21,502 nucleotides of DNA. It comes from a virus. A program made the translations under genes and the position numbers. A model generated the notes under the pieces. It did no database searches. It saw nothing but the letters and a program-made list of their open reading frames with translations, and had not been told where the DNA came from. Of the stretch, positions 540 through 21,004 are shown piece by piece (the stretch's first letter is position 1; every line of letters begins with the position of its first letter). The DNA lies in the IMG/VR virus record IMGVR_UViG_3300025646_000449, positions 1 to 21,502 of that record, one strand, 5' to 3'.

Positions 540-1865
540 TCAAAGGGCTTTTAAAGATGAGTATGTGTTGCCTCGTTTTATTTTTATAGGAAAATCAGAT
601 GAAACAATTTCTTTTATCGCCTGGAATGTATCCTTCCCGTCTTCAATTGCAAAATCAATCAATATAGAATCATACACATATAGGATAATTTTACTTTTTT
701 TACCCTCAAGTATTTGGTATAACCTTGATAACATTGTAAAATTATATTCCGTTTCAAACGCTTGAATATAGTAGTTAAATAGCTTTTGGGGGGTCATGTT
801 TTTATAATTCTCCTTTAAAAGCTTGCGCCTCGCTATTACAGTTTTAACATATCCTTGAGTATTAAATTCGCTCCACAATTTGTCTATAAATTGTTGCGCT
901 TTGTTGAAATATCCGTGTTTAAGGTATTTTTTGTTTATACCTCCGTACATTTGTTGAAACGTTAATTCTTTACTTCGTTTGTACATTTCAGCATCTACTT
1001 CATCTGTTTCGAAGTACATTTTTGCCATTTGTGTGTGTACAGATTCGCTTTTATCTAACTCGCCCCCAGATAGGCGTGCAATGATTCGGGGGTGGTAGCC
1101 CTCGAAATCCATTTCAATAAGCATGTCGTTATCTGCTTCGAAACCATCTCGCTCGCCTGTATCGTGTTTTAGAGCTGAGAAATTAACGCTATTAAAGTTG
1201 TTTGTAGGGCGTCCTGTTGTAGTACAAAAATTATACCATCCGTATATTTTGGAGTCGCGAACACTGAATTTTTCATTAATATCAAAATGTTTGTTGAATG
1301 TATCGTTAATTTTAAAACCCTCACTTACCATTTTTGCTAACGTGGGTGTGAGTATTTCGTTGTACCACTTGTTTGATTCTTCACTTTTGTAGTTGAGTAT
1401 ATACGGGTAAATCGCATTAAATTCTTCCTCTAACGCCTCGTAGTGCTTTGCAAGTGGAATGATTTTATTCACGTTATTTGCGCCATATTTGCGCTCATAG
1501 AACGTGTGTGTACCCGTTTTTGGTAATGAAGCTAGCGGTTCATTTTTTACTAAGTAGTAAATACTTTGTATATCCGTATAAAGGAGTGATGGGATGTGTA
1601 GTAAAGCTTTTACTTTTTCTTTTACGAATATATTCGTATAAGATTTTAGGTATTTTATTGGTAACTCAAGTTCAAATGCCTCGGGGTGGTCTAAATTAAT
1701 GATGAACCCCTTTTCCTTACTAAATGAATAGATGTAAAGAGCACACAGCGATTGCAATTTAGGATGTACCTCGTCGTTGTTTGTAATAAATTGAAGGTAA
1801 CATTCGCTACCCTCGTCTTCAAAAAACCGTTTTAATTGATCTTGTGTTTCTATGAGGTAGTACAT
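540..1865 (-). CDS. Family A DNA polymerase, compact, no visible proofreading site
   Basis: This is a template-directed DNA polymerase of the PolA family, probably the phage replicative enzyme. Polymerase motifs are in the right order: a thumb-start signature around 168-187 (YNEILTPTLAKMVSEGFKIN), a TTTGRPTNNFNSVNF segment at 215-229 with Arg219, motif A at 252-260 (MDFEGYHPR, catalytic Asp253), motif B at 299-309 (K299, F303, Y307, G308: the K-x3-F-x3-YG pattern) and motif C at 396-400 (YVYDS, catalytic Asp399). Two usual motif C residues differ: the His before the Asp is Tyr398 and the Glu after it is Ser400. At 441 aa it is much shorter than E. coli Pol I (928 aa). The first ~165 residues occupy the place of a 3'-5' exonuclease domain but show no DxE motif, and there is no 5' nuclease domain. 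It lies 17 bases downstream of the tail/baseplate operon. Confidence 0.9.
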   Translation of the reverse strand: MYYLIETQDQLKRFFEDEGSECYLQFITNNDEVHPKLQSLCALYIYSFSKEKGFIINLDHPEAFELELPIKYLKSYTNIFVKEKVKALLHIPSLLYTDIQSIYYLVKNEPLASLPKTGTHTFYERKYGANNVNKIIPLAKHYEALEEEFNAIYPYILNYKSEESNKWYNEILTPTLAKMVSEGFKINDTFNKHFDINEKFSVRDSKIYGWYNFCTTTGRPTNNFNSVNFSALKHDTGERDGFEADNDMLIEMDFEGYHPRIIARLSGGELDKSESVHTQMAKMYFETDEVDAEMYKRSKELTFQQMYGGINKKYLKHGYFNKAQQFIDKLWSEFNTQGYVKTVIARRKLLKENYKNMTPQKLFNYYIQAFETEYNFTMLSRLYQILEGKKSKIILYVYDSILIDFAIEDGKDTFQAIKEIVSSDFPIKIKRGNTYSSLKAL

Positions 1866-6058: not shown

Positions 6059-6861
6059 TGTCCAAAGGATCCTAAGGATGATAATAAGTTAGAAGTAGAA
6101 TCAGGTGATAGCCAATTTTGTTGAGAGTCTATACCACCTCTATGAGGTAATATAAATGGTCTATTTTGGTCGTTTTCTGGGGCAAAATCGTGAACAGGTT
6201 TAAACGAACATTTTACATCCAATTGGTGGGGTAATTGATTCATTCTAAGTCCATCTGAACCCAATCTTTCCTCAGAATCTATTTCCCATGAATAAGCACC
6301 CTTCCAATTTAAACTTATATTAGTAAAAAACCCAGGAATTTCATTCATCCAATCACCAACAGTTAATCTAGCAAATTTTGCTCTCATTCTACCATTCTTG
6401 TAACTTGGTGCGGTTTGGGCTACTAAATAATTTAACTTCTGATGAAGTGGTTTCATTTCTTGTCTTGATTGAGCTTGAATTCTAAAACTAAATGAAATTG
6501 ATCTATCAAATTCGCTGTATGTATAAAATTTTTCTGCTCTACCATTATATTTAAAACTATTATGGTTAGCTGTATAATCATCACTTACATCATCCAAATA
6601 AGCTCTAAAAACTAATAAGTCGGCATTTAAAGGATTTTCAGGATCTATAACCTTAATATTGAATTTAATAAGATCTCTAGGGATATCTTCAGGAATAGGA
6701 CCATCGGCATCTATTCTTTTTATAGGGACTGCATTACGGGCATCTCCATAACCAGGATTAGGAGCACTAAAATCATAAGTATCACCTGGTTTTAGATTTT
6801 TTGGGCCACCGGGATTACCACGGCCCATATCTGTTACTATGTCTGGTCTTTGAGTTGCCAT
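6055..6861 (-). CDS. Tail-tube-initiator-like baseplate protein (T4 gp48/gp54-like role)
   Basis: A 268-residue protein with a Gly/Pro-rich N-terminus (~1-55) and a probable tube-type domain from ~60 to ~235. Recognisable blocks are DLIKFNIKVIDPENPL, FRAYLDDVSDDY, RAEKFYTYSEFDRSISFSFR, EMKPLHQKLNYLV, LTVGDWMNEIPGFFTNISLN and LPHQLDVKCSFKPVHDF. Proteins with this pattern are usually annotated as tail-tube initiators or tube-cap baseplate proteins in distant T4-like phages; they sit on the hub and start polymerisation of the gp19 tube. Placement directly after the tape measure fits. Its ATG shares one base with the tape measure stop (TAATG), and its own stop overlaps the next gene by four bases. 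The C-terminal ~35 residues are a Ser/Asn-rich tail. Whether it is nearer gp48 or gp54 cannot be decided by eye. Confidence 0.65.
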   Translation of the reverse strand: MATQRPDIVTDMGRGNPGGPKNLKPGDTYDFSAPNPGYGDARNAVPIKRIDADGPIPEDIPRDLIKFNIKVIDPENPLNADLLVFRAYLDDVSDDYTANHNSFKYNGRAEKFYTYSEFDRSISFSFRIQAQSRQEMKPLHQKLNYLVAQTAPSYKNGRMRAKFARLTVGDWMNEIPGFFTNISLNWKGAYSWEIDSEERLGSDGLRMNQLPHQLDVKCSFKPVHDFAPENDQNRPFILPHRGGIDSQQNWLSPDSTSNLLSSLGSFGQ

Positions 6862-9800
6862 TATGCAAAGTTATTGTTAGTTATATTTCTATTACGTGAA
6901 GGACCTTCACTTTGTCTTGAATTGTTAAAATTATCATTAACAACTTTAACATTATTAAGTGCCGCTACCATTTCAGGGACAAGTGCTTTAATTGTTGATG
7001 CAACAATACCTTCAACTTCTTCAGCTGATATTCCTTGTTGTTGAGTTATAGGTTTGTTTGTTTTTTGTATTACTGAACTAGTTGTATTATTTACAGGGTT
7101 AATAATATTTTCTGTTTTAGGAGTAATAGTATTAATAACAGCTTCTTGTCTAGCATTAAATTCGGCTTGTCTTTCAGCTATTTTAGGGTTATTTGAAGAA
7201 CCTACACCAGTAAAAGTTTCATCTGTAGCTAAATTTTTAACAGTTACTACAAATTCTGTTTTACCGTTATCTAAGAGGGTTTTAACTTTATCTACTATTA
7301 TAGTAGATAATTGGGCTTCTAAAGCATTTATAGTTGTTTTATCTGTTAGAGCAGTTTCTGTTTGGCTAATAGAAGTAGAAGTTTGTACAGAAGATGGTTG
7401 TGGGGTAGCAACTGAAATTCCTGGTACTAGTTCTTTTGAGGCTTGGTTTATAAGAGAAGTTTCTGTTTTATTAGTACCTAATGCTGATTGAATAGGAGAA
7501 GTAGATAATGTAGTAGGTAATAATGTATTAAGTTTTTCTAAATTAGTAGCAGCATTAAAAGTTGCTGTAGAAAGGTTTTCAGTATTTGTTGTTAGTGTTT
7601 CTTGTGTTGTTGTAGGGGAAGGAGTTGTAACTGAAATACCAGGAACTAATTCATTAGTAATTGATTTGGGATTTAAATCTACGGTGTTTGCAGTATTTGT
7701 AACGGTTGAGGCTTTGTCTGTTGTACTAATAGTGTTTGTAGCGGCAGAAGTTTTATCTATAGTGTTTGTAGCGACAGACGCCTTATCTACAATGTTTGCG
7801 GTGTTTGTAGCGACAGATGCTTTGTCTACAATGTTTGCAGTATTTTTAACGGCAGATGCTTTGTCTACAATGTTTGCAGTATTTTTAACGGCAGATGCTT
7901 TGTCTACAATGTTTGCGGTGTTTGTAGCGGCAGATGTTTTGTCTACTATATTTGCAGTGTTTGTAGCAATAGATGCCTGATTTATAGTAATTGTAGCCGT
8001 GTTTGTAGCAACAGATGCTTTGTCTACTATATTTGCGGTGTTTGTAGCAACAGACGTTTTGTCTATAGTGTTTGCGGTGTTTGTAGCAACAGAAGTTTTA
8101 TCTACATTTGTAGTAGCAGACGCTTTGTTTACTATATTTGTAGCGGCAGAGACCTTATCTACTATATTTGCGGTGTTTGTAGCGGCAGAGACCTTATCTA
8201 CTATATTTGCGGTGTTTGTAGCGGCAGATGTTTTGTCTACTGTGTTTGTAGAAATAGATGCTTGGTTTATAGTAATTGTAGCTGTATTTGTAGCAATAGA
8301 TGTCTTATCTACAGTATTTACGGCATTTGTAGCAACAGAAGTTTTATCTATAGTATTTACGGCATTTGCAGCAGTTGATACCTTGTCTACTGTATTTATA
8401 GCATTTTTAGCAGTTAAAGTTTTATCTACCGTGTTTGTAGCAGTGTTTGTAGATATGGATGCCTGATTTATAGTGATTGTAGCGGTATTTGTAGCGACAG
8501 ATGTTTTATCTACTGTGTTTACGGCGTTTGTGGCCGTTGAAGCTTTGTCTACTGTGTTTACGGCGTTTGTGGCAGTTGAAGCTTTGTCTACTGTGTTTGT
8601 AGCAGTGTTTGTAACAGTATTTGTAGCAACAGAAGCTTGATCTATAGTACTTGTAGCGGTAGTAGTTTGAGAAGTAGTAGGTGCTGAAGCTGAAGATACA
8701 TTGATAGTGCCCTTAAAATCTGATAGGGTTTCTAATTTTGCAGCATCTAATGAATTTAAAGATGTAGCTAATAAAGCAACACTGGTAGCTATCCCTTTTA
8801 AAGCAGTGCTTGTTAGATTTAATTTTGGGGCTAATTCAGCTAATGGTTTTAAAGTTAAACCTAATATTGCAATAGCACCTGCACCAAGTAATACTAATGG
8901 AGATAGTGCTCCAAAGAATGCTGCTGATGAGCCTAATACAAATAATGAACTAGCAAATCCAGCCATAACTGCTGGGTCAAGTCCTTCTAACATTTTAAAT
9001 GCTTCAGCAGTAGGAGCAATTGCACTTCCTAAAATATATAATGCTCCTGCACCTAATATAATTGCAGGTGATAAAGCACCAAATAATGCTGAAGCAGTAC
9101 CTAATATAGTTAATGCGCTTGCAAATCCTAACATTGTTGACGCGTTTAACCCTTCTAAAACTGCAAAGGCTTTTGCAGCAGGTGTAAGTGCATTTCCTAA
9201 AACGTATAATGCTCCTGCACCTAATACAACTAATGGGGCTACTACACCTAACATAGATGCTGCTGAACCTAACATAGATAATCCTGTGCTAAATCCTAAA
9301 ATTGCATCAGCAGAAATACCTGCTAAATTTTTCATTGCTTCAGCTGCGGGGACAATTGCTTTTCCTAAAAGATATATAGCGCCTGCACCCATTGCTATAA
9401 CAGGAGCAAATGCACCTATTAAAGCAGTGGTAGTAGATAATTGAGATAACCCAAATGTAAATGATAATATAGCATCAGCAGATATACCTGCTAAATTTTG
9501 CATTGCTTCTGCAGCAGGTGTAATTGCTATTCCTAAAAGTGTTATAGCTCCTGTGCCTAATAAAACTAAAGGTGATAATACCCCCATTCCAGCGGCAGCA
9601 TTTCCTAATAAATTAAGGGCGACTGAAAAACCAATCATTGAATCCGCACTAATTCCTACTAAGTTTTGCATTGCTTCTGCAGCAGGGGCTATGGCTTGTC
9701 CTAAAAGATAAATTGTTCCTGTTCCTAATGCCACTAAAGGAGCTAATGTACCCATAAAAGAAGCAGCTCCTCCAAGTATAGTAAGAGAAGTTGCAAATCC

Positions 9801-12800
9801 TATCATTGAATCAGCAGATATTCCTGCTAAATTTTGCATTGCAATTGCTGCTGGCTCAAGTGCAGAACCAATTAAATAAATAGTACCTGCCCCTAATGCT
9901 ACTAAAGGTGCTAATATACCCATTTGTGTAGCTGCGGTTCCTAATATTGTAAGGGAAGTTGCAAATCCTATCATAGAATCAGCTCCTATACCTGCTATTT
10001 GCTTCATCGCTTCTGCAGCTGGGTCAAGAGCTTCACCTAATAAGAAAATTGAACCTGCTCCTAAACCAATAAGTGGTGAAATAGTACCCATAAAAGCAGC
10101 TGTTGTGCCCAACATTGTTAATGCTGAAGCAAAACCAATCATAGAATCTGAACTAACGTCTGCTAGGGCTTTCATTGATTCAGCGGCATTACTCATACTT
10201 AAACCTAATACAGCTAAAGCACCTGAACCAATTATAATTAAAGGACTCATGACTGCTAAACCTGATACTACTAATCCTAAAGCACCAATACCAGTAGCAA
10301 GTCCTAATAAACTACCTCCATCAATTTCTGTTAATCTTTCAAATGAACCTGTAAATATATCTAAAGCAGGTGAAACAGCCATTAAAGCACTTCCTAAAGG
10401 AATCAAGGCTAAAGATACTAAACTTAAAACACCAGCACCTATTAAAGCAAATGGTGCAGCAACACCTAATACTGTTAAACCACCTGCTAATCCTGCTATT
10501 CCTGCCCCTACCATTAATAGGTTTTCACCATTTATGCCGGCAAGTGTTCCAGATAATCCGGCTAAAGATGAAGTGATTAAAGGTAATACTAATGCTCCTG
10601 CTACTAATCCAGGAATCGCCATTAATACACCACTACCAAATGCTGCTAAACCAATTCCAAAAATTGGCAATGCTGCTCCTATAGCTAATAAATTAGTAAG
10701 TGGTATTTTAGTTGTTAAATCTATTAATGACTGAGTTAATGAAGAAACTGTGGTACTGATTGATTTTCCAATAGCAAAAATAGCGGCTCCCGCAGATACT
10801 AATATATTAGCAATTGCATTTCCTATGTTTGCTATAGAGTTACCTATTTTTTCTACAGCGTTTCCGGCAGCTTCTATCCCAGGGGCAGCTAATCTTAATG
10901 CAGCTCCAAATAGAGTAAATGCTCCTATTCCAGCAAGCACAAATGGTAAGGCAGCTCCCATTATAGTTAACCCACCAGCTAAACCAACCATTCCTAAACT
11001 AAATAAAGCAAAATTACCTCCATCGATTCCAGAAATTGCTTCACTTAATTGAGTTAATGCAGGTGAAAGTATAGGTAATGTAAGAGCTCCTAGCAAGAAT
11101 CCTGGAGTGGCTGTCAATAATCCAGCACCTAATACCATTATACCTGCGCTAAATGCCAAGAACCCTGCACCATCAATACCTGCTATGGCTGCATTGAGTT
11201 CTGCGAGTGCTGGCGCTATAAGTGGTAAAGTAGCAGCACCTACTAAGAATCCAGGTGCTGAAGTTAATAAAGTTACTCCTAATATTCCTACTCCAACTGC
11301 TAAACTAGGTAATGTTAATGCTAAACCTAGCAAACCACCGAGTGGGACATTAGTGGCTAAATCGATTAAAGATTGAGTCAAAGCAGGTAACACAGTAGTT
11401 ACAGCACCTGCTATTGCAGTTATTACTCCTGCGATGGCTGTTCCAACAGCAATTACTGCAGGGGCTGCTAGTGCTAATGCGGCACCAAATGGTATTAAAG
11501 CCGCACCTAACGCGCCTATAAGCGCAACACCTAGGAAAGGTGCCCCAGTGGCTGCAACTGCACCCAACGTGGCTAATCCCGCGCCTAATGCGGCCATACC
11601 TGCTGCTGCAGGTACACCTAATAATGCTATACCTGCTAGGCCAATAGAGCCAACTGCCATAGCAGCTAATCCAAGTGATATGGGGATTAATGATAAACCA
11701 CCTAAAATAGCCATTGGGTCAGCAAATGCTTTTAACCCATTGGCAATACCTTTCATTCCTGCTTGGAGGGTTTTACCATTAAGTTTTTCAACTAATTTTA
11801 ATGGCAATGATGCTACTCCAAGAGCTATTAAACCAGGTGCAGATACAAGTAAAGATAAACCACCTTGTATAACTTTAGGGTCAGCAAATGCTTTAAGACC
11901 CTTAGCTATATTTTGCATTTTTTCTTTTAATGCCTTACCAGTGTCTTTAGGAGCAACAGTTTTACCTGCCTTTTCAGCGGCTCCTGAAGCTTTATCTGTT
12001 ACTCCTTTGACAGCAGCTGCTGGTCCTTCTCCTGGTTTAAATACACCTGCGGTATTAGCTACTTCTTCACTTACCATTCGGCCCGAAGCCATATCACGGA
12101 ATCTACCTCCTCCAGCCATTCTTGGGTCAAATTCAATGCCTGCAGCTTTATTAGCAGCACCACTAAAAGCGCCTGTTAATTTATCTTTAAGCCCTTTTAA
12201 TGGTTCAGTTAGCCCTTTAAATCTTTCTTTAATACCATCAAAAAACCCATCAGTAGAACCTGGGGCAAATGCTTCAGTAAGTTTATCTTTTATACTACCA
12301 AATGAAATCCCACTTACATTATTAGTTATTCCTTTAAAAAACCCAGCATAAGTTGCAGGATTAAATAAAGAACCAAAACTTATTCCTAGGGCTTTGGCCG
12401 CAATAGCAACACCTATTAAAGCATTACTCCAGCCACCAGTAAGTTCATTTAATTTTCCTAACCATTTAGCCACCCAAGCTATAGGTTGTAACATAGCTGC
12501 TAAAACATCAATAACAGGAGTTAAAGCTGTCATTACATTTGCAAATAAATCTTTTACTTTTGAGACAGCTGCGTTAAATTTATCTTGAGCAGAAAGTGCT
12601 TTTGCTTGTTCGTACGCTTGTTTACCCATAGTTGAACGGATTTCTTCAAGCGTTTTATTTTGCATTTCTTGTTTAAGTAATGTTTCTCCTAATTCATTAC
12701 GGTTCATGCCCATTGCCTTTGCAATAGCTTCTTGTTGTTTGACATTCATATCGCCAAACGAAGCTAAATCAACATTTTGCTTCTTGAGTTCTTCACCCAA

Positions 12801-15320
12801 AGTAGCCATATCGTTGTTAAGGGCAGCTGCTCTTGCTTTTTCAAGATTAAGCTGTTTACCAGTTAATAGTTCAGCTTCTAACTCAGCACCAATACTTTGT
12901 TCAAAATCCAATAAATTACCTTGGATTCCTTCTAATTGGGCTAAAGTAGAGCCAAATTCTCTAGCAGCAATTGCAGCTTTAGCAAGTGCTTGTGGGTTTG
13001 AAGCTAACGATGCTTGTAAACCTTTAGAAGTTTTAGCAACATCACCTAATATATCTTTAACAGATGCTGTGGTTTTGCTTGTTTGAAGCATAGCACCTGT
13101 AGTATCGTATAAATTTCCTAGTACATTTTCGGTTTCTTTACCTTGTAACCTCATTAAGGTTGTAAGGTTACCAGCTTCAGCACCAGCTAAACCAATTCGT
13201 TCAGTTAAATTTGTAAATGTTTCAGCTGATTGTGAACTAATATCAAAGAATACACCTGTAGTTTCTTTGAGTGCGAAGAATGATTTTTGTAACTTTTCGC
13301 TGTTAATAAATAAATCACCACTAGCACCTGCGGCGTTACTTAGCGCATTGCGCATAGCTAATGCATTACCATAACCAATGCCTAGTTCCTGTTGGAATTG
13401 GTTGGTTAATTGAGAATTACGTAATAATGCTGCTCCTATAGCAGTTAAAATAGCTGCGGGATCAGTTAGGGTTTGTTTAAGATTACCCATAACTTTTCCT
13501 AACATTTTACCAGCCGCATCTAATTGAGTTACTTTTTTTACATTAGCTTCTATATTAACACCTTGTTCTTTAATATTAGTGAGTATTTTATCATTAATAT
13601 TAAGATTTTTAGTGTTGATTTCAGTTTTTTCTTCTAAAAGTTTTAATTCTTCTTCAGTAAGAGTTTTTCTTTCTTCTATTTTAGAAGTTAAAATTTCTAA
13701 AGATTTTTTATCTTCTTCATTTAAAGTAGATATTTTATCTAAAACTTCCCTTCTTTTTTCTTCAATATCTGTGTTTTCAAGAACAATAGAAGATAAATTC
13801 TGTGCTATACTAATTTCTTCTTCAGTAAGTTTTTGTTTATTTTCAATTTTCTGAGTAATTTCAGCTAATTGTTTACTTTGATCTTCAGTTAAGATATTAG
13901 AAGTTTCTTGAATTTGGGTAAATACAGTAACTAACTCATTACGATTTTTAGCGGTTTCTAAAGAAGCTTTATCTTGGTATTCTTTATTTAATCTTCTTAC
14001 TTCATCCGTAACTTCTTTTACATCTTCAGCTTTAAAAACACTAGCTAATACAGGAATTTTAGAAAATTCTTTAACAATAGAACCTGTAACTCCCATGGTT
14101 TTAGCTAAGTCTTTTTCCCTTAATATTGAAGATTCAATTTCACTAGTTAAAGACTCGTATAAGGTTTTATTGTTAGCTAATACTTTATTAGATTCTATAG
14201 CTTTAATTAAACGAGTTTTTTCAGTATTATTTAAGCCTTTTAATAAATCTTGATTTTGTTCTAAAACTGCTACCTTTTCTTGGATAGATCCATTACTATC
14301 AGCTGATAATTTTCCTTCAGTTCTTAATTCTGTGATTATAGAACGGGCTAAATCTAATTGTTGGGATTTTGTAGTTAGGTTTTCTTTTGTTACTTTAGAT
14401 GCTTTAACTATTGAATCTCGTTCTTCTTTAAACCCTTGTTCTTTTCTGTTTAAGATTTGAGTCATTAACCCAAATTCACTTCGGGTAATTTGTTCTTTAT
14501 TTTCAAGCTTAGAAATAATACTTCTAACTAGTTCTTCTTCTTCAACACTTTTAGTAATATTATTATTTAAGGCATCATTTAAAACTGAAGATATTTGATT
14601 ACGTTGTTCACTTAATTTTATTGCCTTTTCAGTATTAATGTTTTCATTAGTAGCTAATTCATTAATCTGAGAAAAATATGATCTTATTTCATTTAGTTGG
14701 CGGGTTTGACCACCTAATCTTCCATTAGCACTTCTAACAGCATTATCTTGTTCTAAAACTGCGCTGACTATGTCTTGTTGAGTTTGTTTAATACTATCAA
14801 CAATAGCATTAAAATTAAGTTCAGCAGACGCTCTTTGGACTTGGGTTTCTAAACTTTTTTTATCTACGGCAACTTGTTCTTTACTATTGTTAAGTTCTTC
14901 AACAGACATAACCCTAGTAAGATCTCTATCATTTCTAATATTAAACGCAGTATCGCGTAATGATTTAAAATCTTTAAGAACAGTTCTACTAAAATCACTA
15001 GTAGTACTTATACTTCCTACTATCCTATCTAATTCACTACTTACAGAAGATATATCACTAGCATATTCATCTGTGTTTTGTGCTATATTATTAATACGGC
15101 TACTTAATTCTTCATTAAGTTGTTGGAGAAGATTTGTATTGCCCTTTGCTTGACTTAATTTATTATTATATTCTTCAGTTATAGCATTTTGGGCTTCTTG
15201 GCTTAATCCTATTTGTTTAGATAGCTGTAGAATGGTCCTTATAGACTCTTGGATTTGATCTACTAACTGTCTACTCTGATCAATTGGTCCTGGATTAATA
15301 TTATCGTTTTCTTCAGCCAT
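6861..15320 (-). CDS. Giant tail tape measure protein with multi-scale repeats
   Basis: At 2819 aa this is by far the largest gene and lies where a tape measure gene belongs: after sheath, tube and chaperone-like genes and before the baseplate genes. Regions: 1-620, charged coiled coil with repeated K-x2-LTEEE phrases near 490-590; ~607-1107, the most ordinary tape measure-like core, ending in a GGGRFRDMASGRMVSEE segment; ~1135-2205, a hydrophobic Ala/Gly/Leu/Ile-rich tract with many helix-length segments and about nine 56-residue repeats; ~2225-2550, about 25 Thr/Asn/Lys-rich 13-residue repeats (VDKASVATNTANI type); ~2550-2819, a polar tail with a duplicated ELVPGIS phrase. Tape measures fix tail length, and their hydrophobic parts may help DNA cross the host membrane. 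T4 gp29 is only 590 aa. Start chosen at ATG 15320, followed by MAEENDN; the leader has no Shine-Dalgarno sequence. Confidence 0.92.
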   Translation of the reverse strand: MAEENDNINPGPIDQSRQLVDQIQESIRTILQLSKQIGLSQEAQNAITEEYNNKLSQAKGNTNLLQQLNEELSSRINNIAQNTDEYASDISSVSSELDRIVGSISTTSDFSRTVLKDFKSLRDTAFNIRNDRDLTRVMSVEELNNSKEQVAVDKKSLETQVQRASAELNFNAIVDSIKQTQQDIVSAVLEQDNAVRSANGRLGGQTRQLNEIRSYFSQINELATNENINTEKAIKLSEQRNQISSVLNDALNNNITKSVEEEELVRSIISKLENKEQITRSEFGLMTQILNRKEQGFKEERDSIVKASKVTKENLTTKSQQLDLARSIITELRTEGKLSADSNGSIQEKVAVLEQNQDLLKGLNNTEKTRLIKAIESNKVLANNKTLYESLTSEIESSILREKDLAKTMGVTGSIVKEFSKIPVLASVFKAEDVKEVTDEVRRLNKEYQDKASLETAKNRNELVTVFTQIQETSNILTEDQSKQLAEITQKIENKQKLTEEEISIAQNLSSIVLENTDIEEKRREVLDKISTLNEEDKKSLEILTSKIEERKTLTEEELKLLEEKTEINTKNLNINDKILTNIKEQGVNIEANVKKVTQLDAAGKMLGKVMGNLKQTLTDPAAILTAIGAALLRNSQLTNQFQQELGIGYGNALAMRNALSNAAGASGDLFINSEKLQKSFFALKETTGVFFDISSQSAETFTNLTERIGLAGAEAGNLTTLMRLQGKETENVLGNLYDTTGAMLQTSKTTASVKDILGDVAKTSKGLQASLASNPQALAKAAIAAREFGSTLAQLEGIQGNLLDFEQSIGAELEAELLTGKQLNLEKARAAALNNDMATLGEELKKQNVDLASFGDMNVKQQEAIAKAMGMNRNELGETLLKQEMQNKTLEEIRSTMGKQAYEQAKALSAQDKFNAAVSKVKDLFANVMTALTPVIDVLAAMLQPIAWVAKWLGKLNELTGGWSNALIGVAIAAKALGISFGSLFNPATYAGFFKGITNNVSGISFGSIKDKLTEAFAPGSTDGFFDGIKERFKGLTEPLKGLKDKLTGAFSGAANKAAGIEFDPRMAGGGRFRDMASGRMVSEEVANTAGVFKPGEGPAAAVKGVTDKASGAAEKAGKTVAPKDTGKALKEKMQNIAKGLKAFADPKVIQGGLSLLVSAPGLIALGVASLPLKLVEKLNGKTLQAGMKGIANGLKAFADPMAILGGLSLIPISLGLAAMAVGSIGLAGIALLGVPAAAGMAALGAGLATLGAVAATGAPFLGVALIGALGAALIPFGAALALAAPAVIAVGTAIAGVITAIAGAVTTVLPALTQSLIDLATNVPLGGLLGLALTLPSLAVGVGILGVTLLTSAPGFLVGAATLPLIAPALAELNAAIAGIDGAGFLAFSAGIMVLGAGLLTATPGFLLGALTLPILSPALTQLSEAISGIDGGNFALFSLGMVGLAGGLTIMGAALPFVLAGIGAFTLFGAALRLAAPGIEAAGNAVEKIGNSIANIGNAIANILVSAGAAIFAIGKSISTTVSSLTQSLIDLTTKIPLTNLLAIGAALPIFGIGLAAFGSGVLMAIPGLVAGALVLPLITSSLAGLSGTLAGINGENLLMVGAGIAGLAGGLTVLGVAAPFALIGAGVLSLVSLALIPLGSALMAVSPALDIFTGSFERLTEIDGGSLLGLATGIGALGLVVSGLAVMSPLIIIGSGALAVLGLSMSNAAESMKALADVSSDSMIGFASALTMLGTTAAFMGTISPLIGLGAGSIFLLGEALDPAAEAMKQIAGIGADSMIGFATSLTILGTAATQMGILAPLVALGAGTIYLIGSALEPAAIAMQNLAGISADSMIGFATSLTILGGAASFMGTLAPLVALGTGTIYLLGQAIAPAAEAMQNLVGISADSMIGFSVALNLLGNAAAGMGVLSPLVLLGTGAITLLGIAITPAAEAMQNLAGISADAILSFTFGLSQLSTTTALIGAFAPVIAMGAGAIYLLGKAIVPAAEAMKNLAGISADAILGFSTGLSMLGSAASMLGVVAPLVVLGAGALYVLGNALTPAAKAFAVLEGLNASTMLGFASALTILGTASALFGALSPAIILGAGALYILGSAIAPTAEAFKMLEGLDPAVMAGFASSLFVLGSSAAFFGALSPLVLLGAGAIAILGLTLKPLAELAPKLNLTSTALKGIATSVALLATSLNSLDAAKLETLSDFKGTINVSSASAPTTSQTTTATSTIDQASVATNTVTNTATNTVDKASTATNAVNTVDKASTATNAVNTVDKTSVATNTATITINQASISTNTATNTVDKTLTAKNAINTVDKVSTAANAVNTIDKTSVATNAVNTVDKTSIATNTATITINQASISTNTVDKTSAATNTANIVDKVSAATNTANIVDKVSAATNIVNKASATTNVDKTSVATNTANTIDKTSVATNTANIVDKASVATNTATITINQASIATNTANIVDKTSAATNTANIVDKASAVKNTANIVDKASAVKNTANIVDKASVATNTANIVDKASVATNTIDKTSAATNTISTTDKASTVTNTANTVDLNPKSITNELVPGISVTTPSPTTTQETLTTNTENLSTATFNAATNLEKLNTLLPTTLSTSPIQSALGTNKTETSLINQASKELVPGISVATPQPSSVQTSTSISQTETALTDKTTINALEAQLSTIIVDKVKTLLDNGKTEFVVTVKNLATDETFTGVGSSNNPKIAERQAEFNARQEAVINTITPKTENIINPVNNTTSSVIQKTNKPITQQQGISAEEVEGIVASTIKALVPEMVAALNNVKVVNDNFNNSRQSEGPSRNRNITNNNFA
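7674..8648. repeat. 39-bp minisatellite inside the tape measure gene
   Basis: Tandem in-frame repeat coding for VDKxSxATNTAN[I/T]. The base unit is 39 bp (13 codons); I count about 25 units, a few shortened to 30 bp or extended to 42 bp. Some neighbours look identical: the unit containing gctttgtctacaatgtttgc recurs at 39-bp spacing near 7857-7910, and the unit with gagaccttatctactatatt appears twice near 8150-8200. A higher-order pattern is also visible: a unit ending TATIT followed by an INQAS unit occurs three times. Confidence 0.93.
8830..10330. repeat. 168-bp tandem repeats coding for 56-residue hydrophobic units
   Basis: About nine in-frame copies of a 168-bp unit within the tape measure gene. 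Each codes for a 56-residue block of the type SADSMIGFATSLTILG, then PLVALGAGTIYLLG, then PAAEAMQNLAGI. The spacing was checked at three landmarks: the block coding for ADS-MIGF starts near 9977, 9809 and 9641, that is every 168 bases. Copies are diverged at DNA level but keep the same register. Confidence 0.92.
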
Positions 15321-15354: not shown

Positions 15355-15383
15355 TATAAGGTGATGCAAAGCACCACCTTATA
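15355..15383 (-). terminator. Terminator-like hairpin between chaperone frame and tape measure
   Basis: The arms TATAAGGTG and CACCTTATA pair over 9 bp, followed by one A-C mismatch and an inner TGC/GCA stem with an AAA loop. On the minus strand the hairpin is followed by CTTTTTAATATTTA, so it resembles an intrinsic terminator or attenuator. It contains the stop codon of the upstream 76-codon frame and lies 35 bases before the tape measure start. It could lower tape measure expression relative to the chaperone, or be an RNA processing/stability element. Confidence 0.65.
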
Positions 15384-15609
15384 GTTCGTTCTTTAACCCA
15401 GAGTCTTTTGGTAAGTTATCCCAGTCAATGTCAAAGTTTTCAAATGTTTCCATTGCTTTTTCATCATTGGTTTTGCCTTGCTGGGCTTCTTCTTGTTTCT
15501 TATGAATATCACTAATTTTGTTTATATAATAACGTCTCATATAAACGGGTAAATTCCATGCTTGTTCGAAACTAAACCCTCCCTTTCCCCAGTAGACAAG
15601 GTCGAACAC
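15379..15609 (-). CDS. C-terminal domain of tail assembly chaperone, probably expressed by frameshift
   Basis: The frame codes for about 76 residues from a GTG at 15609, but it is open further back to a TAA at 15660-15658. The codons before the GTG read sensibly (GLTSSYKPVIYDE), and the following FDLVYWGKGGFSFEQAWNLP and VYMRRYYINK blocks look like the domain that follows gp26-like proteins in related phages. No good start exists: the GTG has GAG directly against it with no spacing for a ribosome site, and the nearby ATGATG at 15617-15612 is in another frame that soon stops. I therefore think it is normally made as an extension of the upstream gp26-like protein by a +1 shift, giving a ~342-aa fusion. 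The second half is charged and probably helical. Independent expression from the GTG remains possible. Confidence 0.75.
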   Translation of the reverse strand: MFDLVYWGKGGFSFEQAWNLPVYMRRYYINKISDIHKKQEEAQQGKTNDEKAMETFENFDIDWDNLPKDSGLKNEL

Positions 15610-15628
15610 CTCATCATAAATAACTGGT

Positions 15629-15660
15629 TTATAACTGGAGGTCAGGCCAAAAGAAACTTA
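15629..15660 (-). other. Candidate +1 programmed ribosomal frameshift site
   Basis: The gp26-like frame ends AGT TTC TTT TGG CCT ... TTA TAA. The downstream frame is +1 relative to it and is open from just after the TAA at 15660-15658, giving a 28-base window of overlap. Within the window the run TTTT (15652-15649) lets the tRNA on TTT re-pair perfectly with TTT one base later, after which GGC CTG ACC TCC AGT TAT is read. The predicted fusion is 253 + 13 + 76 = 342 residues. The position just upstream of the tape measure gene is the classic place for tail chaperone frameshifts. Confidence 0.6.
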
Positions 15661-16408
15661 CTCCAATGGGAATTTGGACGTCATTAACAACAGTGCCGTC
15701 CTCTCCTTCGAAGTTAAACGTAAGATCTACGTCAGGTGACATATTTTTAACGTAATTTCTTAACGCCCTTGAATCAACTGCAAGTAATTCAGTATCAACA
15801 AATTCTCTAATAGTAGAAGCATCTGTATCTCCATCAACCGAAACAATTGTATGTTTGAGTCGTGTAGTTAATTCTGCTTCTCTCTTCATTTTTCTTAAGT
15901 TTTTAAGCTCAAGTTGAATGTTGTTTTCATCTCTTTGAGTAAGAAGCTTAAATGTTATTTTTCTCTTAGAAACAGGTAATTCAAAATCAAATTCATTTAC
16001 ACCAGGTGTTTTAACTAGTCCATCATCTAATTCTTTATCTTGAACCATAGACAAGTCAACCATTACTTCTTCATCCTCATTAGTATTAGGATTAGTGTAG
16101 TTAAACACATAATGAGGCCCATACCCATAGACCCGCGCCGCCACCAAAATAGCGTTTTTATCTCCAATTAAAATGTCGTTAAAATTGATAGGTGATACCA
16201 CTAGTGATTCTAATAGTTTATCAATTACAACTCCTGATTTGATGAAGCTTTGGTTTGTTAGGATATCCTCTTCCTTTGCGGTCATGTACTTTACTTCAAT
16301 AGTACCATCTTTAAGAGGAGAATCTTGTGGGTATAATAACCCTTTTGAAGGTAAACCTACCTTTTCTGTTTGTAACTTTTTTTCAGCCATGTTTATAACT
16401 TTAGACAT
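15629..16408 (-). CDS. T4 gp26-like tail/baseplate assembly protein (T4 baseplate family)
   Basis: A 259-residue protein with the hallmark N-terminal block of the T4 gp26-type 'T4 baseplate protein' family (Pfam T4_baseplate, as I recall it): LPSKGLLYPQDSPLKDGTIE at residues ~19-38, then VKYMTAKEEDILTNQSFIKS. The middle (~75-150) has a beta-rich part with YGPHYVFNYTNPNT, and a charged helix follows (LKNLRKMKREAELTTRLKH). It ends SFFWPDLQL. In T4, gp26 is needed for baseplate hub assembly; in this gene position, between tube and tape measure, the protein probably acts as a tail assembly chaperone for the tape measure. ATG at 16408 gives MSKVINMAEKK; the seventh codon (ATG at 16390, MAEKKL) is an equally plausible start. 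It follows a terminator, so it may have its own promoter in 16409-16430, though I see no clear consensus. Confidence 0.85.
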   Translation of the reverse strand: MSKVINMAEKKLQTEKVGLPSKGLLYPQDSPLKDGTIEVKYMTAKEEDILTNQSFIKSGVVIDKLLESLVVSPINFNDILIGDKNAILVAARVYGYGPHYVFNYTNPNTNEDEEVMVDLSMVQDKELDDGLVKTPGVNEFDFELPVSKRKITFKLLTQRDENNIQLELKNLRKMKREAELTTRLKHTIVSVDGDTDASTIREFVDTELLAVDSRALRNYVKNMSPDVDLTFNFEGEDGTVVNDVQIPIGVSFFWPDLQL

Positions 16409-16430: not shown

Positions 16431-16466
16431 TGAATAAATAAAAAGAAGCGCCAAAAGGCGCTTCTT
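16431..16466 (-). terminator. Intrinsic terminator after the tail tube gene
   Basis: A perfect 10-bp stem (AAGAAGCGCC with GGCGCTTCTT, 16443-16466) around a four-base loop, followed on the minus strand by TTTATTTATT. It lies 25 bases beyond the stop of the tail tube gene and before the gp26-like gene, so it should end the abundant sheath/tube transcript. It is the clearest terminator in the window. Confidence 0.88.
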
Positions 16467-16490
16467 CTTTATGTAAAATGTTGGGCGATA

Positions 16491-16994
16491 TTAGTATCTT
16501 AAGAGGCAGTAATCCATCGCAAGAGTTAAGCTGATAGTTTGAGCTGTGTTAGCGTTAGACCAGTCAGCATCTTGGAAATCAACACTCTTGATGAAAGATC
16601 CTTTAAGTTCCCATTCTTCAACAACATCACCTACGGGACCTAAAGAGCGGAATTTTACATCCTTCTTGTAGAAATCTTGGTAACCGTCTCTACCAGTTAC
16701 TGACTCGTGGTGGAGTCTGAACCAGTTCATTACAGCTTGAGCACCAGATGGGTTGATTGGATCGTACAATTCGCACGTAATGTCTCCCCAGGAAACTCTA
16801 CCTTTCAATTTTCTTTGTAGGTTAATGTGGTCGAGAGTAATCTCTTCGAACGATGGTTTAGGTCTATCAGCCTTTTTTACAAGGTAAGCAGGTACACCTT
16901 CAATGTCGAAGTAGAATCTGTTCTTTGTTTTAGGCTCGTATGTCTTGTAGAACATACCGATATCGCCTAATTGTTCGTTCTTTAAAATTGCCAT
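16491..16994 (-). CDS. Tail tube protein (T4 gp19-like)
   Basis: A 167-residue protein that matches T4 gp19 (163 aa) in length and layout. Polymerised hexamer rings of this protein form the inner tube of the contractile tail, through which DNA passes. Recognisable features are the N-terminal RFYFDIEGVPAYLVKKADRP, the strand segment SFEEITLDHINLQRKLKGR, the block VSWGDITCELYDPINPSGAQ followed by VMNWFRLHHESVTGRDGY, and the final AQTISLTLAMDYCLLRY, all typical of the T4 gp19 tube family. It lies 41 bases after the second sheath gene and is closed by a strong terminator, consistent with one high-level sheath/tube transcript. The leader AAAATAAAATAAAATGGC lacks a Shine-Dalgarno sequence. Confidence 0.92.
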   Translation of the reverse strand: MAILKNEQLGDIGMFYKTYEPKTKNRFYFDIEGVPAYLVKKADRPKPSFEEITLDHINLQRKLKGRVSWGDITCELYDPINPSGAQAVMNWFRLHHESVTGRDGYQDFYKKDVKFRSLGPVGDVVEEWELKGSFIKSVDFQDADWSNANTAQTISLTLAMDYCLLRY

Positions 16995-17035: not shown

Positions 17036-18772
17036 TTAATCTGTGAAAGAAGCACCAGTTGGTGTTAAAACGAAATCAAGTACTACGAATTCAGCAGTTT
17101 TGGTAGGCTGTAAGAATACCTGACCGACCAATTTGTTTTCGTCAATGATATCTGGTGTGTTGAGTTGGCCATCTACTTTGATTTGGAAAGCATAAAGACC
17201 TTGTCTCTGTACCAAGCTTTCAAGGTATGGAGTAGCTTGTCTTACAAAGCGGTCTCTAGTTTGCTGAGTATTCTGTTCAAATACGAGCTTTCTAGAGAAC
17301 CCACCGATTGTATCTTTCACATCAAGCAACAATCTGCGAACGTTTACTCTATCGAGTGCGCTAGTAGCATTTTGTAGTGTTTTCTGACCGAAAATTACAA
17401 TTCCTTGTCCTGGGAAAGTAGCAATTGGGTTAACTTTTGAAGAGTAGAGGTCATCTCTTTGTGTCTTAGACAATTTAGTTTCAACCTTACTTACATTAGT
17501 AACACCACCTCTAGTTAAACCAGCAGGTGCGAACCAAGGTGCTGCTAAGCTATCATTCTTGGCGAATACACCAGGAACAATTACAGATGCTGGGCACCAT
17601 ACGTTTCTACCTAACTCAGTGCTTCTAACTTGAGCCCAAGGCCAGTAAGTAGCAGCATAGTTAGTATCTAATGCTTCAGCAGCTGTTTTAGCATCACTCA
17701 CAGCAGAACCGTAATCTACAGTATCTACTACAAACAAGCTATCACCTCTATTAGTAGTGTTAGCAATTACAGTATTAACTAACGTAGAGTGGTCTGCTTG
17801 TGTTACACCAGGAATAATTAGAGTTTTGAATTTAAACTCTTCTTTGTTGCGAAGGATATCGATTGAAGCAGTATAATCATTAGTTGCTAAACCTTGAATA
17901 GCTCCAGCAGCTGAACCATTAGCACCAAATAATGGATTACCGGATGTGTTAGTACCTACACCACCTTCAAAAGTACCGCTTTGAGCTGTTGGTAAGTATT
18001 GGCTAAATGGAGTAGATCCATCAAGATTTACGTTACCATCAGATGATAAGTACTGGTAAGTGGGGTTATTAACTGCTTTTACTCTTACCAGTTGTGATTT
18101 GTTAGGGAATTCACCTCTTACTACTACAGATACGGGGTCAGTACTATCATCCTTTTCAAAGTACTGATCACCAATTTTTCTTGCGATGTAGTTTGGTGAA
18201 AGCGGATCGAGTGAGCAGTTAGTGAACTGTTCTAATACTATAGGAGCATTAGTAGTATCGTCACCTCTTCTGATTGATACAGTGAATGTACCAGCAGCTT
18301 GGTTAACATTACTAATTTCGTATCTAATGTTATCTTTAGATCCTGAGTGTAAACCACCACCTGTGTATTCTGGACCCACACTATTTAGGAGAGCACCTTT
18401 ACCAAGTGTTTCTAATTCAAATGGGTTGGTTTCAACACCACCTACAGTAGTCATATCACTACCTGAAGCTGCTGTCCATGAATCTGCATCTTTTACTACT
18501 CTTACAACTAATGCAGTAGAACCACCATTTTGGAAGTAGTTTTTAGTTGCTAAGCTAGTGTAATATTCATATGCATTAGAAGCAGATTCTAAAGTAGTAC
18601 CGTATATAGCTTTAAATTCGTTATAGTTTTTAACGAGTGTTGGAATTTCAACAGGTCCCTTTACGGTTGGACCTATAATTGCCATCCCTGAGGGATCTAC
18701 TCCAGGTGATACAAGAGATTTGTCAACCTCTTGTAGCAATACACCGGGAGATACTATTGTTTCTGTTGCCAT
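17036..18772 (-). CDS. Contractile tail sheath protein, second paralogue
   Basis: A 578-residue tail sheath protein (T4 gp18 role). The N-terminus MATETIVSPGVLLQEVDKSL with a following GMAIIGPTVKGPVEIP is the usual sheath start that forms the inter-subunit arms. The C-terminal half carries the conserved sheath core: YWPWAQVRSTEL, SLAAPWFAPAGLTRGG, GQKTLQNATSALDRVNVRRL, QTRDRFVRQATPYLESLVQR, QGLYAFQIKVDGQ and a final AEFVVLDFVLTPTGASFTD. It is a paralogue of the gene just upstream (21-base gap) and lacks that gene's extra ~154-residue insertion. T4 gp18 is 659 aa. Both genes keep intact reading frames and complete ends, so neither looks like a decaying copy. It may form a mixed sheath, a special ring at one end, or be used alternatively; the sequence does not say which. 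Confidence 0.95.
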   Translation of the reverse strand: MATETIVSPGVLLQEVDKSLVSPGVDPSGMAIIGPTVKGPVEIPTLVKNYNEFKAIYGTTLESASNAYEYYTSLATKNYFQNGGSTALVVRVVKDADSWTAASGSDMTTVGGVETNPFELETLGKGALLNSVGPEYTGGGLHSGSKDNIRYEISNVNQAAGTFTVSIRRGDDTTNAPIVLEQFTNCSLDPLSPNYIARKIGDQYFEKDDSTDPVSVVVRGEFPNKSQLVRVKAVNNPTYQYLSSDGNVNLDGSTPFSQYLPTAQSGTFEGGVGTNTSGNPLFGANGSAAGAIQGLATNDYTASIDILRNKEEFKFKTLIIPGVTQADHSTLVNTVIANTTNRGDSLFVVDTVDYGSAVSDAKTAAEALDTNYAATYWPWAQVRSTELGRNVWCPASVIVPGVFAKNDSLAAPWFAPAGLTRGGVTNVSKVETKLSKTQRDDLYSSKVNPIATFPGQGIVIFGQKTLQNATSALDRVNVRRLLLDVKDTIGGFSRKLVFEQNTQQTRDRFVRQATPYLESLVQRQGLYAFQIKVDGQLNTPDIIDENKLVGQVFLQPTKTAEFVVLDFVLTPTGASFTD

Positions 18773-18793: not shown

Positions 18794-21004
18794 TTAGTCT
18801 GTGAAGCTTGCGCCTGTTGGGGTTACGATAAAGTCTAATACAACAAATTCAGCTGTTTTAGTAGGCTGTAAGAATACCTGACCGACCAATTTGTTTTCAT
18901 CAACTACGTCAGCTGGGTTTAATTGACCATCCATCTTGATTTGGAAAGCATAAAGACCTTGTCTCTGTACCAAACTTTCGAGGTATGGGGTGCATTGTCT
19001 TATAAATCTATCGCGAGTTTGTTGAGTATTTTGTTCAAATACGAGTTTATCAGCAAATCCACCGATTGTATCTTTCATATCAAGTAACAATCTACGAACA
19101 TTGATTCTATCAAGAGCGCTTGTATCGTTTTGGAGAGTTTTCTGACCAAATACTACCAAACCAGTATCTGGGAATGTAGCGATTGGGTTAACTTTTGAAG
19201 TGTAAAGATCATCTCTTTGTGTTTTAGAAACTTTAGTTTCAACTTTAACAACAGAACGACCTAATTTACCTCTAACTTCACCAGCAGGTGCGAACCAAGG
19301 TGCTGCTAAGCTATCATTTTTAGCATAAACACCAGGAATTACAGCAGAAGCAGGAACCCAAATATTTCTGTTTAATTCTGTGCTTCTAACCTGAGCCCAA
19401 GGCCAGTAAGTAGCGGCATAACTTGTGTCTAATGCTTCAGCATTAGTTTTAACAGCAGATTGTAAAGCTCCATATGCTACTACGTCTGCAACAAATAAGC
19501 TGTCACCTCTAAATGTAGTGTTTGCGATTATAGTATTTAAAGTAGAAGAGTGGTTTTCTTGGTTTAACCCAGGAACAACTAATGTCTTAAACTTAAACTC
19601 GTCTTTATTTTTAAGAATTGAAATTGCTTTAGTGTAGTCAGTTGATTTTAATCCTTGTAATGCACCGTGATTATCAGATTGTGCTGATTGAGATCCATAT
19701 AAACCAGCTACTCCTGTGGGAATGTTTGCACCGGTAGCGCCACTAAATTCACCAGTCTGTGCAATCGGGAGAGAAGCTGAGTATGAAGTATTTCCTGAAT
19801 CTTCAGCAACATCTCCATTAGGAGCGAGGTATTGATATGTTGGTAAGTTTACAGCAGAAACTCTTACAAGGTTTGATTTGTTTTCAAATTCACCCTCAAC
19901 GTTTACTACATAATCACTGCCATCTTGAGATACAGTAAAGCTTTGATCACCAATTTTTCTTGCGATGTAGTTTGGAGAAAGTGGATCAAGTGAGCAGTTA
20001 GTGAATTGTTCTAGAACAAGTGGAGCATTTGTTGTGTCGTCACCTCTTCTGATTGATACAGTAAATGTACCTGCTTTATTGTTTACATTACTAACTTCCC
20101 ATCTGAAGTTGTCTTTAGTACCTTGTGGTAAACCACCACCAGTGAATGTTCCACCAGCTACAACACCATTACGAACAGTAGCTGCGGTAACAGTTGAAGG
20201 TAATCCAGCACCAACTGTGGTAGTTATATCACCGTTGTTTTGACCTGCAAATGCAACAACACCATTTGTTGTGTTTGTTACGGCAAGTGCAACAGCATTA
20301 TCGTCTATATCAAAGTAAGCTCCTAATGATTCAGAGACTAAAATTGATGCTGAAAGAGCTGTGATAGTTCCATCGGGTAGTGCAATTGAGTCAGCTCCAC
20401 CTCCTGCTAAGTCTACTTTAATAACTGTACCTAAAGGTTCATCTCCAGATGAATAATTAGAACCTGAGAATACTACTTGATAATCAACACCACCTGAAAC
20501 AATCGTAATATACGCATTTGTGTTGGTTGAAGTTAATTCTAAAGAAGAAGTATTAATTGCTGCAGTGTTGGTAAATGTAATTTTATCAACACCTACCTGT
20601 CCAGTAGATACACTGTTTAAGTCAGCACCTTTACCTAAAGTTGTAAGGGTAAATGGTTGAGTGCTGTCTTTAGCTGAAGCTGATAAGTGGGTGTTGGAGG
20701 CTGCGCCCCAAGTACCTGAGGCAGAAACAACTCTTACTACAAGAGCGGAAGCACCTCCATTTTCGAAATAATTTTTTACTGCTAGGTTAGTGAAGTACTC
20801 GTAAGCTTCTGAACCAGATTTAATGGTAGTTCCGAAGACTTCTTTGAACTCATTATAGTTTTTAACTTGAGTAGGAATTTCAATAGGACCTCTAGCAGTA
20901 GGTCCGATAATTGCCATTCCTGAAGGGTCAGTACCTGGAGAGACAAATGATTTGTCTACTTCCTGTAACAACACCCCTGGGGATAGAATTGTTTCTGTTG
21001 CCAT
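18794..21004 (-). CDS. Contractile tail sheath protein, first paralogue with inserted domain
   Basis: A 736-residue tail sheath protein. The N-terminal ~60 residues (MATETILSPGVLLQEVDKSF...) and the C-terminal ~350 (YWPWAQVRSTELNRN, SLAAPWFAPAGEVRG, GQKTLQNDTSALDRINVRRL, AEFVVLDFIVTPTGASFTD) are nearly the same as in the following sheath gene. Between about residues 133 and 286 it carries an extra Ser/Thr/Gly-rich, probably beta-sandwich domain (from VGVDKITFTNTAAINTSSLE to about TAATVRNGVVAGG) that the 578-aa paralogue lacks; the two rejoin at TGGGL. In T4 gp18, variable domains sit on the outside of the sheath, so this insert may be surface-exposed. The leader AGAAAAATAAAATGGC has no Shine-Dalgarno sequence. 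It is the first gene after a stem-loop, probably in one transcript with the second sheath and tube genes. Confidence 0.95.
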   Translation of the reverse strand: MATETILSPGVLLQEVDKSFVSPGTDPSGMAIIGPTARGPIEIPTQVKNYNEFKEVFGTTIKSGSEAYEYFTNLAVKNYFENGGASALVVRVVSASGTWGAASNTHLSASAKDSTQPFTLTTLGKGADLNSVSTGQVGVDKITFTNTAAINTSSLELTSTNTNAYITIVSGGVDYQVVFSGSNYSSGDEPLGTVIKVDLAGGGADSIALPDGTITALSASILVSESLGAYFDIDDNAVALAVTNTTNGVVAFAGQNNGDITTTVGAGLPSTVTAATVRNGVVAGGTFTGGGLPQGTKDNFRWEVSNVNNKAGTFTVSIRRGDDTTNAPLVLEQFTNCSLDPLSPNYIARKIGDQSFTVSQDGSDYVVNVEGEFENKSNLVRVSAVNLPTYQYLAPNGDVAEDSGNTSYSASLPIAQTGEFSGATGANIPTGVAGLYGSQSAQSDNHGALQGLKSTDYTKAISILKNKDEFKFKTLVVPGLNQENHSSTLNTIIANTTFRGDSLFVADVVAYGALQSAVKTNAEALDTSYAATYWPWAQVRSTELNRNIWVPASAVIPGVYAKNDSLAAPWFAPAGEVRGKLGRSVVKVETKVSKTQRDDLYTSKVNPIATFPDTGLVVFGQKTLQNDTSALDRINVRRLLLDMKDTIGGFADKLVFEQNTQQTRDRFIRQCTPYLESLVQRQGLYAFQIKMDGQLNPADVVDENKLVGQVFLQPTKTAEFVVLDFIVTPTGASFTD
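20147..20608 (-). other. Beta-rich inserted domain within the first sheath gene
   Basis: This stretch codes for residues ~133-286 of the 736-aa sheath protein and has no counterpart in the 578-aa paralogue (length difference 158 residues). It is rich in Thr, Ser, Gly, Val and Asn with alternating hydrophobic residues (AYITIVSGGVDYQVVFSGS; AVALAVTNTTNGVVAFAG), a pattern typical of phage surface beta domains. Boundaries are estimated from where the two sheath proteins stop aligning. Confidence 0.75.

Follow-up and report, generated by a model that had tools for sequence, protein, structure and literature searches.

The window, i.e. the whole stretch of 21,502 nt analysed here (positions 1 to 21,502 of the IMG/VR virus record IMGVR_UViG_3300025646_000449), harbours on its minus strand a gp26-like gene (15629..16408) whose 259 aa product is a candidate for the short form (TAC-N like) of a tail assembly chaperone. 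The product matches PF12322, the family of T4 gp26 and gp51, with 25.7 bits (cut-off 24.5) and covers positions 9-219 of the 219 of the profile; it also matches the baseplate hub family phrog_150 (E 3.6e-12). The gene ends with GTA AGT TTC TTT TGG CCT GAC CTC CAG TTA TAA and is overlapped by a downstream +1 frame on the same strand, whose open stretch runs from 15657 to the stop codon at 15379-15381, giving therefore an open overlap of 29 nt with the gp26-like gene; a reading made earlier from the letters of the window alone (hereafter the sequence-only reading) had seen this overlap, but had put its length at 28. The +1 frame encodes a putative C-terminal (T-like) domain of 89 codons plus stop (15379..15648, minus strand), so that the predicted long form consists of the first 253 residues of the gp26-like protein and this domain, i.e. 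342 aa. At the junction lies the conserved shift site TTC TTT TGG CCT (0 frame; 15644..15655, minus strand), with the P-site TTT at 15652-15650 and the skipped base inside the TTTT run at 15652-15649, which is present as described. The lack of a credible start in the downstream frame also holds, the GTG at 15609 being the only start-like codon ahead of its conserved core.

This unit (15379-16408) sits between the genes for the tail tube and the probable tape measure protein, as is usual for chaperone pairs. The upstream tail tube gene (16491..16994, minus strand) is recognized by its match to the tail tube family phrog_4542 (E 6e-27), while the downstream ORF (6861..15320, minus strand, 2819 aa) is probably the tape measure gene, judging from its size, repeats and position; it has no Pfam match, and the ORF at the homologous place is annotated as tape measure in phages immuto and SP-15. 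Its repeats form arrays of 39 nt (13 aa, TNTVDKAS-like) and 168 nt (56 aa) units at 7729-8628 and 9175-10091. Two hairpins resembling intrinsic terminators, both on the minus strand, border the unit: one at 15355..15383, which begins where the +1 frame stops, and one at 16440..16469, separating the tail tube gene from the chaperone unit. With such hairpins on both sides, the gp26-like gene and the +1 frame look like a single transcription unit. A crude test detected a terminator after the second frame at 44 of 204 loci versus 46 of 420 control stretches, and we therefore claim this terminator for the window alone. Further upstream, the window carries two adjacent and diverged tail sheath genes (17036-18772 and 18794-21004, minus strand; 578 and 736 aa, both phrog_23). 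Beside the tail cluster lies a 441-aa ORF (540-1865, minus strand) with a match to profiles of phage DNA polymerases (phrog_17, E 4.8e-13).

A first scan of viral contigs yielded 80 loci with 51-90% identity, and every one of them that is long enough to extend beyond the gene end has the downstream domain in this same +1 frame, with the bases of the site nearly fixed. Two more scans and the addition of phage records raised to 211 the number of distinct loci at which a second domain could be detected; the domain is in the +1 overlapping frame at 210 of these, which are drawn from related sequences and do not represent independent events, and in the -1 frame at one. The latter locus (L175) has kept the TTT TGG site, and either an assembly indel or a true change of direction may underlie its frame. 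Phage records with the +1 arrangement, among which SP-15, GXN1, LIS04, Mel-JY01 and the jumbo phage LR756508 also fit, come from Flavobacterium, Microcystis, Bacillus, Listeria, Streptococcus, Streptomyces and Rhodothermus. Only four loci were found in a scan of genome contigs, and a plasmid search with the BRock protein gave no match. The entropy of the +1 frame by codon position is coding-like, both before the 0-frame stop (0.72/0.71/0.99) and after it (1.32/1.05/1.54). The +1 offset of the frame with the domain is far beyond chance.

At the slip site itself, the P-site codon is TTT at 197 and CTT at 13 of the 210 loci, followed by T (204 loci) or C (6 loci), then mostly by GG or AC/AT, and then by CCT. 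The A-site codon is thus a sense codon, i.e. TGG at 164/210 and TAC/TAT at 39/210 loci, and not a stop codon of the prfB type. The site encodes conserved residues in both frames, namely Phe/Leu-Trp/Tyr-Pro in frame 0 and G-L-T in frame +1. Its codon usage is strongly biased: the slip-site Phe is TTT in all 197 cases, while TTC is used for 474 of 2131 (22%) Phe codons elsewhere upstream in the same genes, and the Pro after the site is CCT at 200 of 202 loci versus 34% elsewhere, at least partly because a Leu (CTN) is conserved there in the +1 frame. A canonical -1 heptamer (X XXY YYZ with the domain in the -1 frame) does not describe the site, since the domain is in the +1 frame; moreover, the -1 frame of the window runs into a TGA a few bases past the P-site codon, and the same TGA is found in most relatives. 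No conserved RNA stem was found downstream of the site (mean z -0.80 vs -0.26 for a control stretch); a Shine-Dalgarno-like motif upstream of it is present at 51 of 178 loci and hence not conserved as a stimulator.

Comparison with T4-type phages links this unit to known long chaperones. T4 gp51 continues for about 48 residues past its PF12322 match, and P-SSM2, S-PM2, HTVC008M, Cr30, phiM12 and phiW-14 encode a similar C-terminal domain in a -1 frame that overlaps their gp26-like gene, with T TTT TTY as the site. Aligned by hhalign to a profile of these -1 domains and the gp51 C-termini, the +1 domain scored a probability of 96% (P 2.7e-9), and the fused product over its whole length matched the complete T4-type long forms (P 4.5e-20), the alignment staying collinear across the junction FF; T4 gp26 alone gave no match to the +1 domain. 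The link between T4 gp26/gp51 and G/GT-type chaperones proposed in the sequence-only reading is thus borne out by profile alignment. Homologues with an in-frame long form, which that reading had suggested looking for, do exist, i.e. T4 gp51 and its kin; T4 and RB43 have two separate genes, and in RB43 and Klebsiella phage RCIP0002 a gp26-like gene comes immediately after the gp51-like one. In a tree of the short form, for which the alignment was built from contig loci, sequences with the +1 arrangement occupy one half and those with the -1 or two-gene arrangement the other, with Campylobacter phage CP21 as long-branch exceptions. The proposal that the gp26-like family uses a +1 shift consequently stands for a broad clade, but not for the cyanophage/pelagiphage branch, which uses -1.

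Given that the fused product can be aligned over its full length with T4-type long chaperones, the comparison argues for a short (gp26-like, as lambda G) and a long (gp51-like, as GT) form produced via a +1 shift. The gp26-like gene is therefore very probably a tail assembly chaperone gene with a programmed +1 ribosomal frameshift, the second domain apparently being reached only by way of the first frame. From these sequences we infer the slip, its efficiency and the binding roles of the products as follows. The majority of ribosomes would terminate at 15629, yielding the 259-aa gp26-like short form. In a minority, the peptidyl-tRNA-Phe on TTT (15652-15650) would shift by +1 onto the overlapping TTT and GGC would be read next; these ribosomes would end at 15379, and their product, the long form of 342 aa, would carry an additional helical domain. 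If the two forms work as lambda G and GT do, the N-terminal part common to both would bind the tape measure protein encoded next, the C domain found only in the less abundant long form would recruit the tail tube protein, and both chaperone forms would eventually leave the tail.

That the downstream frame is instead a separate small gene, with its own start or coupled at the gp26 stop, seems very unlikely, even though it is how several annotations have it: small genes are recorded there in immuto (gp038), Mel-JY01 (WWT39326), SP-15 (SP15_046) and BRock (gp135), and in the annotated records examined the second domain is either such a small separate gene, in part or whole, or was missed. One 595-kb phage (LR756511) has a homologous-looking second ORF that starts at an ATG of its own, which overlaps the stop of the gp26 gene, at a gene end without the slip site. 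However, when the +1 frame was searched from its upstream stop to some 36 nt beyond the site, 66 of 178 non-redundant loci had no ATG, GTG or TTG at all and 69 had only GTG or TTG, while an ATG occurred somewhere in 43, with no conserved place for a start. Conservation of the +1 frame begins at the slip site, upstream of any start, and the fixed nucleotides of the site would be left without a reason.

A -2 ribosomal shift would lead into the same frame as the +1 shift; we regard it as a little less probable even than a separate gene. Most loci do have a poly-T, and -2 re-pairing is permitted at 184 of 210 of them, but it would place the tRNA on a poor codon at the remaining 26, including the window (TTT to TCT), whereas a +1 slip re-pairs the tRNA on TTT or TTC at 210/210 loci. 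This favours the +1 direction given in the sequence-only reading, for which the frame offset and the slip site are, moreover, both conserved among homologues. Slippage of RNA polymerase on the T run, resulting in a mixed mRNA pool, is hardly to be expected: although the run reaches at least 7 T at many loci, it is interrupted in the window (TTTCTTTT) and at about 24 loci with TTC or CTT, and the codon phase is constrained. That the arrangement results from gene decay or from an error in sequencing or assembly, for which only the single exceptional locus L175 would speak, can practically be dismissed, since the same frame recurs in more than 200 independent contigs as well as in finished phage genomes; error, raised beforehand as a possible refutation, is thus ruled out for the family.

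The preferred reading, i.e. programmed +1 frameshifting, has several precedents. The abstract by Vladimirov and colleagues is said to name 26 and 51 and to report frameshifting as conserved in several T4-like groups. As far as their study (Vladimirov, Gautam, Davidson, Virology 2022, 566:9-15) is represented in the papers citing it (PMC12846349, PMC10885494), it identified the tail assembly chaperones of T4-like phages, which some groups produce by frameshifting and T4 from separate genes; the link drawn here had been published with it, which corrects the sequence-only reading on this point. It is cited for -1 poly-T signals (PMC12846349) and, in the PRFect paper (PMC10885494), for some T4-like phages having a short gene plus a longer fused gene without frameshifting. 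The T4-like chaperones resemble the window in belonging to PF12322, in the short/long pair, in the C-terminal domain by profile and in having a poly-T where the short form ends in FF, but differ in using -1 at T TTT TTY or two genes, versus +1 at TTT-T in the window.

Frameshifting of the lambda G/GT type is widely conserved, with T4 as an exception (PMC5009743), and lambda gpG/gpGT shares with the window a pair of frames that overlap directly ahead of the tape measure gene and the short and long products (PMC5009743); it differs in its -1 direction, its site and, at the sequence level, its protein family. A +1 frameshift is known for the chaperone of the haloarchaeal myovirus HSTV-2 (PMC5009743). 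By inspection, its overlap has TTT followed by C, as in the TTT-C variants of SP-15 and GXN1, but the HSTV-2 chaperone has no match to PF12322 and belongs to another family. The +1 site of prfB, encoding RF2, is CUU UGA. Both there and in the clade of the window a P-site YUU slips +1 onto UUU, including the CTT of 13 loci; in prfB, however, the A site holds a stop codon, while the clade has a sense codon and no conserved Shine-Dalgarno-like stimulator.

Considering all branches together, it seems likely that one whole branch of the gp26 family shifts +1 at a conserved sense-codon YUU U without a recognizable stimulator, while the sister branch shifts -1 at the same place or uses two genes, i.e. 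three decoding strategies with a direction that switched in evolution. A +1 shift throughout a broad sister clade, together with a switch of direction within one family, appears to be new. The clade would contain a frameshifted counterpart of T4 gp26/gp51, with a slip direction opposite to that of the cyanophage branch. It allows the +1, -1 and two-gene solutions for one protein pair to be compared as they occur in nature, and provides a compact sense-codon +1 site for testing. It also calls for a correction of annotations in which the second domain is recorded as a small separate gene or overlooked.

The structures of the short form and of the C domain were predicted as two separate pieces. 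Among 871 solved chains, the best two matches of the short form were YqbN of B. subtilis (Z 5.2), which we take to be an XkdN-type tail chaperone, and the HK97 chaperone 2ob9 (Z 4.7), a similarity that may reflect a common arrangement only. The model of the C domain comprises three helices (mean pLDDT 71), and its fold matched nothing among viral models at E <0.001. The C domain (window 15382-15654, minus strand) weakly resembles DUF6760 (PF20546; 16.2 bits, curated cut-off 27), and DUF6760 compared with the C domains of 13 relatives gave a best E of 1.5e-4. A scan of 287 bacterial genomes for DUF6760 gave no match, with the controls equally silent. DUF6760 is known from contractile injection systems, and the possible connection of these systems with the chaperone pair is worth a look. 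Finally, Campylobacter phage CP21 has two PF12322 copies (L282 and L280), of which L282 carries TTT TAC near its end and, in the +1 frame, a C domain of the gp51 type; this may be a +1 shift that arose independently within the T4 half of the tree.
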